Source: Stenotrophomonas maltophilia
GTDB lineage: Bacteria; Pseudomonadota; Gammaproteobacteria; Xanthomonadales; Xanthomonadaceae
Direction: 5' to 3'
Assembly (NCBI RefSeq): GCF_006974125.1
Contig: NZ_CP037858.1
Span: 1 to 64,000, forward strand
Length of the DNA: 64,000 nt
A program made the position numbers and the translations under genes. Under the pieces are notes generated by a model. The model saw nothing but the letters and a program-made list of their open reading frames with translations. It was not told the origin of the DNA and searched no databases. Shown in pieces: positions 29,926 through 32,752 of this stretch (position 1 is the first letter of the stretch; each line of letters starts with the position of its first letter).

Positions 29926-30708
29926 ATGATGCGCAGCGAAAGTGAACGCAAGGAACTCGGCGGCTTCCTCAAGGCCTGCCGCGCCCGTGTCGACCCCGCC
30001 ACGCTCGGCCTGCCGGCCGGGCGCCGGCGTACCCCGGGCCTGAAGCGCGAGGAAGTGGCGCTGGCGATCGGGGTCAGCGTCAGCTGGTACACCTGGATCG
30101 AGCAGGGCCGTGAAGTGCGTGCCTCGCCCGAGGTGCTTGAGCGCCTGGCGCAGGTGCTGCGCATGAGCGATGACGAGCGCGCCTATGCGTTCGCGCTCTC
30201 CGGCTATGGCGTGCCGCTGGAATCACCGGACGAGAGCGTGACTGATGGTCTGCGCCAGCTGGTGGAAGCGATGCAGCCGATCCCGGCCTACGTGCGCAAC
30301 ACCCGTTTCGACATCCTGGCCTGGAACCCCGCCATCGCCGAGCTGTTCGTGGACTACAGCCAGCTGGCGCCGCATGAGCGCAACACGCTGCGGCTGATGT
30401 TCCTCTACCCGCCGTACCGCACGCTGATCCTCAACTGGGAAGAAATGACCCGCGGCCTGCTGGCCGGCTTCCGCGCGGCGATGGCGCAGGCGCCGGACAA
30501 GGCGCCGTTCCTGGCGCTGGTGGAGGACATCGCGGCGCACAGCGAGGAGTTCCGTCAGTGGTGGCCGGAGCACGACGTGCGGCGGTTCGATGAAGGTGCA
30601 AAGAAGTTGAACCATCCCACGCGCGGGTTGCTGGACCTGCAGTACGTGGCGCTGGTGCCGGAGAGCCGGCACGACCTTTCCCTGGTGACCTACCTGCCGC
30701 GGAAGTAG
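29926..30708 (+). CDS. XRE-family regulator with MmyB-like ligand domain
   Basis: This is a 260-residue transcriptional regulator. The N-terminal helix-turn-helix (about 10-75) shows RRTPGLKREEVALAIGVS and WYTWIEQGREVRASPEVLERL. The C-terminal domain (about 90-255), with RNTRFDILAWNPAIAELF and HDVRRFDEGAKKLNHP, matches the MmyB-like PAS-type ligand-binding domain found in actinobacterial and proteobacterial regulators that bind fatty acids or similar compounds. A second ATG immediately follows the first. The likely target is a neighbouring dehydrogenase or an unlinked gene; nothing in the sequence decides this. Confidence 0.82.
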   Translation: MMRSESERKELGGFLKACRARVDPATLGLPAGRRRTPGLKREEVALAIGVSVSWYTWIEQGREVRASPEVLERLAQVLRMSDDERAYAFALSGYGVPLESPDESVTDGLRQLVEAMQPIPAYVRNTRFDILAWNPAIAELFVDYSQLAPHERNTLRLMFLYPPYRTLILNWEEMTRGLLAGFRAAMAQAPDKAPFLALVEDIAAHSEEFRQWWPEHDVRRFDEGAKKLNHPTRGLLDLQYVALVPESRHDLSLVTYLPRK

Positions 30709-30750
30709 GTGGGTCGGCAGGGCTGCGCCCTGCACCCGCAGAGGCCGAAG

Positions 30751-30774
30751 CAACAGCAACAGCAACAGCAACAG
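30751..30774. repeat. Hexanucleotide microsatellite (CAACAG)4
   Basis: Four exact copies of CAACAG lie between the outer arm and the first hairpin of the compound palindrome. The corresponding place in the right-hand unit holds only a degenerate version, so the copy number may vary. Confidence 0.9.
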
Positions 30775-30917
30775 CGGGCATTCTGTGGGATGGCGGGGCG
30801 GTGTGGGTGGGCAGGACACGCCGTAAACCCGTCCATGGGGGCTCGATGGCGCCATCCGTGGCGCCAACGGTCCTGCCCACCCACACCGCCCCGCCCCGAC
30901 AGATCTCCGCGGCTGTT

Positions 30918-31013
30918 GGTAGGTGTCGACCTTGGTCGACACATCTGTCAGATATCGAATGAGTCATCCACGCATGGCGTGGATCTACTGTGTCGACCAA
31001 GGTCGACACCCAC
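30918..31013. repeat. GTAG-type REP elements in the centre of the compound palindrome
   Basis: GGTAGGTGTCGACCTTGGTC (30918) and its inverse GTGTCGACCAAGGTCGACAC (to about 31010) flank an ATCCACGC/GCGTGGAT stem (about 30967-30985). They lie between the two inverted hairpin units. Confidence 0.75.
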
Positions 31014-31366
31014 CAGGGCAATACGTCGCTCCAACAGATCCCGGAAAACTGTCGAAGGCGGGGTGGGTCCGGTTGAGGGGGCGTGAGCCGCATGGATGCG
31101 GCGACCGAGCTTACATGGACGTACTTGCAGCGTCCCCCTCAACCGGACCCACCCCGCCAACCCACGGAATGCCAGCTTCTGCCGTTGCCCTTGCCTTGGC
31201 TTGAAGCCTCTGCGGGTGCAGGGCGCAGCCCTGCCAGGAGCCCCCATTCAGACAGGTAAGTGCAGGTCACAGGATAAGCAGACGCCTTGTTGCCTCCGCC
31301 AATCGGGTCCACATTCCTGTGCAGGAGACGGGCCGCCGCCCGTTGTCGAGACAACAGGAGCCCTGC

Positions 31367-32752
31367 ATGTCCACTGCCCCCAGCACCGCCATTTCCCGCG
31401 ATCCGGCCACCGGCCAGCAGATCGCCAGCCATCCCTTCGCCACCGATGCCGAACTGGAAGCCATCCTCGATCGCGGCCAGGTTGGCTTCGCCGTCTGGAG
31501 CGCAAGGAGCCTGGAGCAGCGGGCCGAGGTGCTGCGCGCGATGGCCGCCGTGCTGCGCCGCGACCGCAAGAAGCTGGCCGCGCTGGCCACCGCTGAAATG
31601 GGCAAGGTCCAGGCCGAATCGTTGGCCGAGATCGAAAAGTGCGCCGTGCTGTGCGACTGGTACGCCGACAACGGGGCACGGTTCCTGCGCGACGAACCGA
31701 CCCAGGTGCCCGACGACAAGGCCTACGTGTCCTACCTGCCGCTGGGCGTGGTGCTTGGCATCATGCCGTGGAACTTCCCCTACTGGCAGGTGATGCGGGC
31801 GGCGGTGCCGATCCTGATGGGCGGCAACGGCTTCCTGCTGAAGCCGGCGGAGAACATCGTCGGCACTGCGCAGCTGCTCGACGCGGCCTGGCGCGATGCC
31901 GGGCTGCCTGAGGGCACCTTCATCGCCGCCAACATCAGCCGCGAGGGCACCAGCCGCGCGATTGCCGATGACCGCATTGCCGCGGTGACCCTGACCGGCA
32001 GCGTGGCCGCCGGCCGCAGCATCGCTGCCCAGGCCGGGCAGGCGCTGAAGAAAGTGGTGCTGGAGCTGGGCGGCTCGGATCCGTTCATCGTGCTGGCCGA
32101 TGCCGATCTTGATGCGGCCGTCGATGCGGCGGTGGCCTCGCGCTTCCAGAACACCGGGCAGGTCTGCATCGCCGGCAAGCGCATCATCGTCGAAGACGCG
32201 GTCTACGATCGTTTCGTGGCGCAGTTCTGCCAGAAAGTGCAGGCGCTGACCATCGGTGACGGCCGCGACCCCGGCAACCGCATCGGCCCGATGGCGCGCC
32301 AGGACCTGCTGGAACAGCTCGATGCGCAGGTGCGCGCGTCGGTCGACGCCGGTGCGCAGCTGCTGGTCGGCGGGCACCAGCTCGATCGTCCCGGCGCGTT
32401 CTATGCGCCCACCGTGCTGGCCGGGGTGGAGCCGGGCATGCAGGCCTTCGATACCGAGACCTTCGGGCCGGTGGCCTCGATCAGCCGCGCCCACGACGCC
32501 GACCATGCGGTGGAACTGGCCAACCAGAGCGAATTCGGCCTCAGCGGCAACCTGTGGACCGGCGACCGTGCCCGCGCCATGCAGATGGCACGCCGGCTGC
32601 AGACCGGCGGTGTGTTCGTCAACGGCTTCTCGGCCTCCGACCCGCGCGTGCCGATCGGCGGTGTGAAGAAGAGCGGCTTCGGTCGTGAGCTGTCGCACTT
32701 CGGCATCCGCGAGTTTGTCAACGCGCAGACAGTGTGGTTCGACAAGCGTTGA
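31367..32752 (+). CDS. NAD(P)-dependent aldehyde dehydrogenase, succinate-semialdehyde type
   Basis: This is a 461-residue aldehyde dehydrogenase. The start at 31367 (MSTAPSTAISRDPATGQQIA) has AGGAG upstream. MPWNFPYWQVMRAAVP is the coenzyme and substrate signature, LELGGSDPF carries the general-base glutamate and FQNTGQVCIAGKR the catalytic cysteine. The C-terminal NGFSASDPRVPIGGVKKSGF is typical of the short Sad/YneI-like succinate-semialdehyde dehydrogenases. It would oxidise succinate semialdehyde (or a related aldehyde) to the acid. The next gene follows after 65 bp and may be cotranscribed. Confidence 0.85.
   Translation: MSTAPSTAISRDPATGQQIASHPFATDAELEAILDRGQVGFAVWSARSLEQRAEVLRAMAAVLRRDRKKLAALATAEMGKVQAESLAEIEKCAVLCDWYADNGARFLRDEPTQVPDDKAYVSYLPLGVVLGIMPWNFPYWQVMRAAVPILMGGNGFLLKPAENIVGTAQLLDAAWRDAGLPEGTFIAANISREGTSRAIADDRIAAVTLTGSVAAGRSIAAQAGQALKKVVLELGGSDPFIVLADADLDAAVDAAVASRFQNTGQVCIAGKRIIVEDAVYDRFVAQFCQKVQALTIGDGRDPGNRIGPMARQDLLEQLDAQVRASVDAGAQLLVGGHQLDRPGAFYAPTVLAGVEPGMQAFDTETFGPVASISRAHDADHAVELANQSEFGLSGNLWTGDRARAMQMARRLQTGGVFVNGFSASDPRVPIGGVKKSGFGRELSHFGIREFVNAQTVWFDKR

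Follow-up and report, generated by a model that had tools for sequence, protein, structure and literature searches.

The RU-2/YPAL element of Yersinia is a miniature insertion sequence of about 168 bp with internal inverted repeats and target duplications of 3-26 bp, and the openly accessible text of its description has it co-transcribed with upstream genes, whose RNA stability it may affect (PMC2229807). The TwoAYGGAY family (Rfam RF01731) has an outer stem that encloses two AYGGAY hairpins, and an AAG linker; the accessible parts of its descriptions do not present it as a dispersed repeat. It was reported in 2010 for the human gut, gammaproteobacteria and Clostridiales (PMC2864571) and was predicted to bind CsrA (PMC4333381), hence the CsrA idea for this fold is already in print. 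Ysr224 (Rfam RF02770) is a reported Yersinia sRNA. REPs are in general 20-40 bp long, and the SMAG repeats are of the GTAG family, the dimers of which favour heterodimers over homodimers (PMC3733652; accessible text).

The requirements of CsrA-type proteins have been described in detail. According to the accessible text of PMC7652899, RsmE contacts the A and the GGA of an ANGGAN hexaloop, the N being variable, and the CsrA SELEX consensus is RUACARGGAUGU, with six-nucleotide loops closed by AC/GU pairs in 44 of 55 ligands; for CsrA, a very high stability of the structure may be a drawback. The motif has also been given as A/UCANGGANGU/A (PMC6153318, accessible part).

The window analyzed here is a stretch of 64,000 nucleotides of Stenotrophomonas maltophilia (GCF_006974125.1, contig NZ_CP037858.1, positions 1 to 64,000 of the forward strand; genome size 4.55 Mb). 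The first-pass annotation of the window had described a compound palindrome of about 520 bp made of two inverted hairpin units, with a perfect 30-bp outer inverted repeat and perfect stems of 26 and 25 bp around 52-nt loops. An inverted-repeat search recovered all of these arms at 100% identity and the compound exactly at 30716..31235 (Table 1). A third inverted repeat, absent from that annotation, was found within the spacer (30917-30943/30989-31015, 27 nt, 96%).

Table 1. Features of the compound locus and its neighbouring genes (window coordinates).
Feature	Position	Strand	Description
Upstream neighbour	29926..30708	+	helix-turn-helix regulator, MmyB-like ligand-binding domain; Pfam PF13560, PF17765
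Outer arm, unit A	30716..30745	+	REP-like hairpin GCAGGGC-TGC-GCCCTGC (30717-30733) and flank; 30-nt inverted repeat with 31206-31235, 100%
(GCAACA)n-type linker, unit A	30747..30776	+	repeat number differs among copies
Core hairpin, unit A	30792..30895	modelled strand -	26-bp stem (arms 30792-30817/30870-30895, 100%), 52-nt core (loop 30818-30869)
Hexaloop 2, unit A	30831..30836	-	AUGGAC; unpaired probability 0.99-1.0
Hexaloop 1, unit A	30854..30859	-	ACGGAU; NGGA unpaired probability 1.0
Spacer	30896..31056		GTAG-tagged REP (SMAG-type) hairpins 30919-30942 (+) and 30965-30988 (-); related hairpin 30990-31015
Core hairpin, unit B	31057..31158	modelled strand +	25-bp stem (arms 31057-31081/31134-31158, 100%), 52-nt core (loop 31082-31133)
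Hexaloop 1, unit B	31092..31097	+	AUGGAU; UGGA unpaired probability 1.0
Hexaloop 2, unit B	31115..31120	+	AUGGAC; unpaired probability 0.48-0.98 in single-sequence fold
Outer arm, unit B	31206..31235	-	same REP-like hairpin as unit A arm
Downstream neighbour	31367..32752	+	aldehyde dehydrogenase family protein; Pfam PF00171

The order of parts in each half, from the outside in, was the 30-bp outer arm, the (GCAACA)n-type linker and the long hairpin, and the GTAG-tagged REPs lay between the halves. The outer arm of unit A began 7 bp past the stop codon of the upstream gene, and short REP-like hairpins resembling that of the outer arm also adjoined many other copies of the element. The repeat number of the linker (30747-30776 and equivalents) differed between species at the same locus, and the linker could be usable in strain typing. 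The two stems had been regarded as wholly different in sequence, which did not hold: both began with GGCGGGG on the strand that reads ANGGA in the loops (the ANGGA strand), and both 5' arms were G-rich. The view that the compound is not SMAG was right for the hairpin units, from which the GTAG tag is absent, and an identity of these units with SMAG was rejected on that ground; it was wrong for the spacer, which is occupied by REPs of the SMAG type. SMAG repeats thus sit beside the units and share with the compound a preference for heterodimers, but they are short GTAG-tagged palindromes, whereas the units hold a 52-nt structured core.

Folding of unit A (plus strand) and unit B (minus strand) gave z-scores of -8.6 and -5.7, respectively, and none of 200 shuffles was equally stable in either case. 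The best single-sequence fold of unit B departed from the modelled structure in the region of hexaloop 2; the three pairs beneath this hexaloop were kept in all 43 other aligned copies. A consensus scan of the locus found no promoter- or terminator-like site, and a sigma-70 promoter or intrinsic terminator of its own was rejected. Rfam matches to microRNA precursors (MIR1858 and others) stayed below their cut-offs and were attributed to chance, the hairpin being long and rich in GC.

The unit had been proposed for a search elsewhere, and it proved to be abundant. In the genome of the window, the 190-bp unit had at least 55 matches with E values of 1e-3 or below (40 of 180 candidates scored). 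A core pattern matched there exactly 132 times (67 and 65 per strand), and two narrower core patterns gave 73 + 58 = 131 exact copies, with none for a reversed control; when up to two mismatches were allowed, 230 core matches were obtained versus 34 for the control. It is close to certain that the element is a real, widespread, structure-conserved dispersed family related to YPAL, in which a stem of 25-28 bp and nearly free sequence surrounds a 52-nt core.

The compound in the window turned out to be the standard form, as 78 of the 131 copies were arranged in 39 pairs of neighbours with less than 600 bp between them. Every one of these pairs showed one layout, a minus copy followed by a plus copy, and the distance between their cores was 213-360 bp; the proposal that the two units are inverted copies of one element was thereby borne out. 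Near-identical stems within a pair were seen in 1 of 40 pairs, against 6.1 expected for random copy pairs and 4.3 for reshuffled partners, and so few or fewer occurred in 0.7% of random draws. This weakened the idea of a single giant palindrome. The mean stem score within pairs was not lower than that of reshuffled partners (8.1 versus 8.4), hence the avoidance is limited to near-identical stems; an avoidance of long perfect palindromes would explain it. In 0.5-Mb bins along the genome the strands were even (67 plus, 64 minus). The replication-strand bias that would point to single-strand transposition was thus not seen, although the layout of the pairs evens out the strands of paired copies in any case.

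The structure was derived from 125 copies of the same genome, all of which had been chosen by the exact core pattern. From these, 68 diverse copies were picked and 62 aligned, of which 43 gapless ones were retained (alignment A3); because MAFFT misaligned the 25-bp-stem class, 19 copies, those of the class of unit B included, were dropped. Both the covariation counts and the covariance model R1 were built on A3. The modelled structure comprised 41 pairs, with 26 in the outer stem, 9 in hairpin 1 and 3+3 in hairpin 2. Paired cells made up 98.0% of 1763, compared with 71.8% in shuffles and 38-46% when the structure was slid along the alignment. Covariation of the stems, the other check proposed in the first-pass annotation, was found as changes on both sides of 35 of the 41 pairs among the 43 copies. 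The covariation score was 0.659 versus 0.176 for shuffles, and none of 500 shuffles reached it, a significance that is overstated, given the relatedness of the copies and the use of these same copies to draw up the structure. RNAalifold, left unguided, returned the same plan with one additional A-U pair inside hexaloop 1, and the modelled pairs ranked top in mutual information within the loop.

The core was 52 nt long in most copies of the genome. An extra covarying pair was present at core positions 43-46 (31124-31127 in unit B), in the bulge of hairpin 2, where U-A or C-G stood in 84 of 86 distinct loops of this genome and in 44 of 45 other loops. The four nucleotides read UUUA, UUCA, CUUG or CUCG, the covariation reaching across two nucleotides, and this is perhaps a mini-loop of the CUUG type, which CsrA binding does not explain. 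The same is true of other conserved core positions, namely AGC, U44 and C47 in the bulge, and GCG.

The strand that folds is probably the ANGGA strand, as judged from its imperfections, which are G-U rather than A-C. When read on this strand, 26 fixed pairs of the 125 copies comprised 3035 Watson-Crick, 76 G-U, 17 A-C and 122 other combinations; over the 22 inner pairs, G-U outnumbered A-C in 37 copies and the reverse was seen in 4. A scan of named genomes gave 124 instances among the matches listed, 99 of which were kept as distinct copies (outer-stem score of at least 10; duplicates and N removed). Among these, 2496 Watson-Crick, 159 G-U, 22 A-C and 124 other combinations were counted, G-U exceeding A-C in 70 copies and falling below it in 9. 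Sign tests gave 1e-7 for the first set and 8e-13 for the second (among the matches listed), values that are too small because the copies are related. Strand-neutral mutation would give equal numbers of G-U and A-C, therefore selection, or a transcription-linked mutation, appears to see the ANGGA strand. The same sign of bias would arise from folding of single-stranded DNA, in which G-T is tolerated better than A-C. The R1 model scored unit A at 116.3 bits on the minus strand and 43.5 on the plus, a high score that is expected since unit A sits in the alignment of the model, and unit B, which lies outside that alignment, at 98.2 bits on the plus strand and 43.3 on the minus.

On the ANGGA strand the core forms two small hairpins with C-G-closed ANGGAY hexaloops. 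Hexaloop 1 was left free by the search pattern in the named-genome copies, which makes it an unbiased test of the loop. In the 48 of those copies that have a 52-nt loop, among the matches listed, the A was found in 46, the two G in 48 each and the final A in 47, while the N position held T in 25, G in 19, A in 3 and C in 1. In hexaloop 2 of the 125 home-genome copies, the A and GGA of which were fixed by the pattern and the N left free, any base occurred at N (T58, G48, A16, C3). An automatic finder (loops of 4-8) detected A.GGA in hairpin 1 of 94 of the 124 instances among the matches listed; by eye, many of the 30 exceptions held GGA in a shifted or 5-nt loop, and several had no GGA. Of 20 loci detected by R1 in other genera, 17 were readable and had ANGGA in both loops, which R1 favours.

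Paired ANGGAN hexaloops on stems, as in ligands of CsrA/RsmA, were thus present, loop 2 of unit B being less clear in the single-sequence fold. A hairpin 2 of the UAC-ANGGAY-GUA type agrees with the CsrA SELEX consensus, and the L202 copy holds GUACAGGGAUGU, which is identical to it. One congeneric genome (G014, locus L385) has amplified a variant with another hairpin 1 (GCTAGAAAACATGGATGTTTTCTAGC), in which the GGA loop is retained. Small palindromic insertions inside the small hairpins or hexaloops were noticed by eye in several species (L152, L155, L165, L166 and L167), as if another mobile element targeted the loops.

The exact core was present in 26 of 37 congeneric genomes, that of the window included, at 3 to 157 copies, and the control matched once over all 61 genomes searched. 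It was not found in the other 11 of the 37, which are mostly smaller (G004, G007, G012, G016, G018, G020, G024, G025, G028, G030 and G034). The R1 search of the phylum, run with strict filters and at most 10 candidates scored per genome, was positive at E 1e-4 in at least 33 of 398 genomes, from 20 of 212 genera and 13 families, all in the class of the window. Of 274 genomes of the class, 33 had matches to a relaxed core pattern, with zero control matches throughout; one gammaproteobacterial genome (G692) gave 441 exact matches to it (220 and 221 per strand). The named-genome scan matched at least 120 stretches, and among the matches listed (80 titles) the titles indicated gammaproteobacteria, such as Xanthomonas, Marinobacter, Microbulbifer, Rheinheimera and Methylomonas, two of them saying Proteobacteria only. 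Two related genomes had strong matches to Rfam 5_ureB_sRNA near the element, with 126.8 and 118.3 bits (cut-off 40) at L194:1026-1312 and L198:1025-1311.

CsrA (PF02599) was encoded in 220 of the 398 genomes and in 33 of the 33 element-positive ones. Within the class, the element occurred in 13 of 23 families with CsrA and in none of the 8 listed families without it (p 0.006), or in none of 12 when four number-only families were added (p 0.0008), figures that are confounded by phylogeny. The R1 search of the 398 genomes did not find the element in CsrA-bearing genomes of other classes.

When compared with the described families, the same core was recognized by eye in the printed RU-2 sequence, with the loops AAGGAT and ATGGAT, and both elements are intergenic (PMC2759123, Table 1b; accessible text). 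In contrast to the unit in the window, YPAL/RU-2 is about 168 bp long with another stem, and the accessible text names it for Yersinia species and Erwinia carotovora only and does not mention CsrA. The two guesses of the first-pass annotation, a structured RNA or a non-autonomous mobile element, thus each gained partial support, since the core is common to the element and to the miniature insertion sequence. The consensus of RF02770 spans the core on the complement of the ANGGA strand; in the window this family scored 32.5 bits (E 1.4e-5 for 561 bases), below its cut-off of 70, and it passed the cut-off in 2 of 20 R1 loci (L201 and L202). Units A and B follow the plan of TwoAYGGAY, including the AAG linker, but hairpin 2 is longer in the RF01731 consensus. 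The cut-off of RF01731 (43 bits) was passed on the ANGGA strand in 2 of 20 R1-positive loci (L186 and L187), and the family was not listed for the window in searches of unit A at E 10 and of both units at E 5. A link of TwoAYGGAY or its CsrA idea to YPAL or to a dispersed repeat was not found in the accessible open-licence literature. The link between YPAL and TwoAYGGAY is new, as are the copy number, the freedom of the stem, the spread and the hetero-dimer layout.

The gene context was analyzed with our own heuristic gene caller, which was retrained and returned six expected genes in a check region. Both neighbours were called for 115 of the 125 copies. In 48 of these the genes converged on the element, the 5'-side gene running with the ANGGA strand and the 3'-side gene opposite to it; both ran against this strand in 32, both along it in 28, and 7 were divergent. 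For reference, the window has 21 wide gene gaps, of which 5 were convergent. When copies with one side uncalled were included, 81 of 117 had a 3'-side gene that opposed the ANGGA strand, and 82 of 123 had a 5'-side gene that ran along it. Read-through in the ANGGA sense is therefore possible from the 5'-side gene in about two thirds of the copies, while the nearest gene usually reads the complement. Twelve copies lay inside a called frame. De Gregorio et al. reportedly found in 2006 that YPAL inserts close behind stop codons. A like placement was seen here, as the end of the 3'-side gene faced the element in those 81 copies, with a median gap of 76 bp in one main class and 85 bp in the other, compared with about 340-375 bp on the 5' side.

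The history of the element was followed at orthologous sites. Congeneric loci were located by the upstream gene, and 20 strong full-length matches were used, that of the window included; at more than 50 bits, R1 detected both units in 11 of them, one unit in 5 and none in 4, two of which were cut by contig ends. Inspection by eye showed that one and the same site carries different hairpin subtypes in different species, each differing as an entire cassette, thus hairpins seem to be exchanged as cassettes. At another site (L039), 30 of the 40 matching genomes were inspected by eye. The element with the same stem class was present in G000, G006, G036 and G021, three genomes looked like microhomology deletions, and two (G014 and G027) carried unrelated stems, one in the opposite orientation. 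A 3-nt block changed in mirrored fashion in both arms between G000 and G006/G036. No clean empty site or target duplication was seen at this site in the 30 genomes, the losses resembling deletions. Another flank, selected to look for empty sites, matched other repeats and was left aside. A formation of the stems from the target at insertion found no support, since the orthologous sites fitted deletion better.

The best single reading of these data is that the element would function as an RNA that binds RsmA/CsrA, a prediction from sequence and structure modelling to which we assign a probability of about 0.52. We proposed that the active form is RNA from a single strand, the minus strand in unit A and the plus strand in unit B, in which the long stem of free sequence would present the two small hairpins with ANGGAY hexaloops, and that one RsmA/CsrA dimer would clamp both hexaloops of an element. 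The RNA might arise by read-through from neighbouring genes into the intergenic regions, and it would then act as a 3'-UTR or free RNA site, either titrating RsmA or altering the fate of the linked transcript. On this reading the ANGGA strand would be transcribed, bound by RsmA and of regulatory effect. Sponge RNAs of the CsrB/RsmZ type likewise carry GGA motifs in hairpin loops, but each of them is one dedicated RNA that carries many sites (CsrB, PMC7652899; accessible text), in contrast to many dispersed copies with two sites. The proposed role resembles, by its description, that of RsmU of Xanthomonas campestris, a 3'-UTR-derived RNA that binds RsmA; RsmU continued to bind RsmA in vitro when all four of its GGA motifs had been altered (PMC7694677; accessible text). 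The strongest objections to the RsmA reading are the strand of Ysr224, which is opposite to the ANGGA strand and counts against an RNA reading, the orientation of the nearest gene, and the near-perfect stem of 25-28 bp, which exceeds what RsmA needs.

The same observations might be explained at the level of DNA, with the folded ANGGA strand as the single-stranded substrate of a putative transposase, the loops as its recognition marks and no role for RNA. Such a mobile element would fit a core equal to that of YPAL, copy numbers of up to 441 per genome, the unrelated and partly reversed stems of G014 and G027 at one orthologous site, and a tolerance of G-T over A-C that holds in folded single-stranded DNA as well. 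Yet the balance of strands in the home genome, which paired copies would show by layout anyway, speaks against it, as do the losses at the L039 site, which by eye resemble microhomology deletions rather than excision, and the freedom in both loops of the very base that CsrA neglects would have to be a coincidence; we consider this explanation unlikely, if worth keeping in view. A generic 3'-end hairpin was judged improbable. It would be a bidirectional RNA structure that stabilizes, processes (by RNase III) or insulates convergent transcripts, its loops being conserved by common descent only, and it would account for the 48 of 115 copies that lie between convergent genes, most of them a short distance past the stop codon of the gene on the 3' side, and for the possible effect of YPAL on the RNA stability of genes read with it (PMC2229807, accessible text). 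Against this stand the conservation of two loops across genera despite unlike stems, the 52-nt core in most copies of the home genome and the strand-specific wobble bias.

The perfection of the stems had been taken to imply selection. By itself this argument is not compelling, given the cassette-wise differences of subtypes and the mirrored 3-nt change, and the bias of G-U over A-C is better evidence. Intrastrand template switching corrects one arm of a palindrome by the other. Stem perfection might be mainly mutational, with arm copied onto arm in this way and hairpins swapped between copies by recombination, as the whole-subtype swaps at an orthologous site and the block mirrored between G000 and G006/G036 suggest; palindrome-correcting mutation could then add to the covariation. 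As the main explanation it is very improbable, for it predicts neither the excess of G-U over A-C nor the covariation in the short inner hairpins.

Beyond the RsmA reading itself, we tentatively suggest, with more doubt than confidence, that a widespread, self-spreading gammaproteobacterial RNA element seeds paired CsrA/RsmA sites at gene ends, in numbers of up to hundreds per genome, so that the transcriptome would be a distributed CsrA sponge, each new copy would rewire the Csr regulon, and a single superfamily would embrace YPAL, Ysr224 and TwoAYGGAY as its named fragments. The element joins the mobile element YPAL to TwoAYGGAY, an RNA family of unknown function, and its more than 100 copies are a natural series with fixed paired sites on a freely varying stem. 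Should the loops bind RsmA, an inert-looking extragenic repeat would rank among the most numerous kinds of regulator-binding site in these genomes, and it would be a candidate answer to how Xanthomonadaceae antagonise or buffer RsmA.
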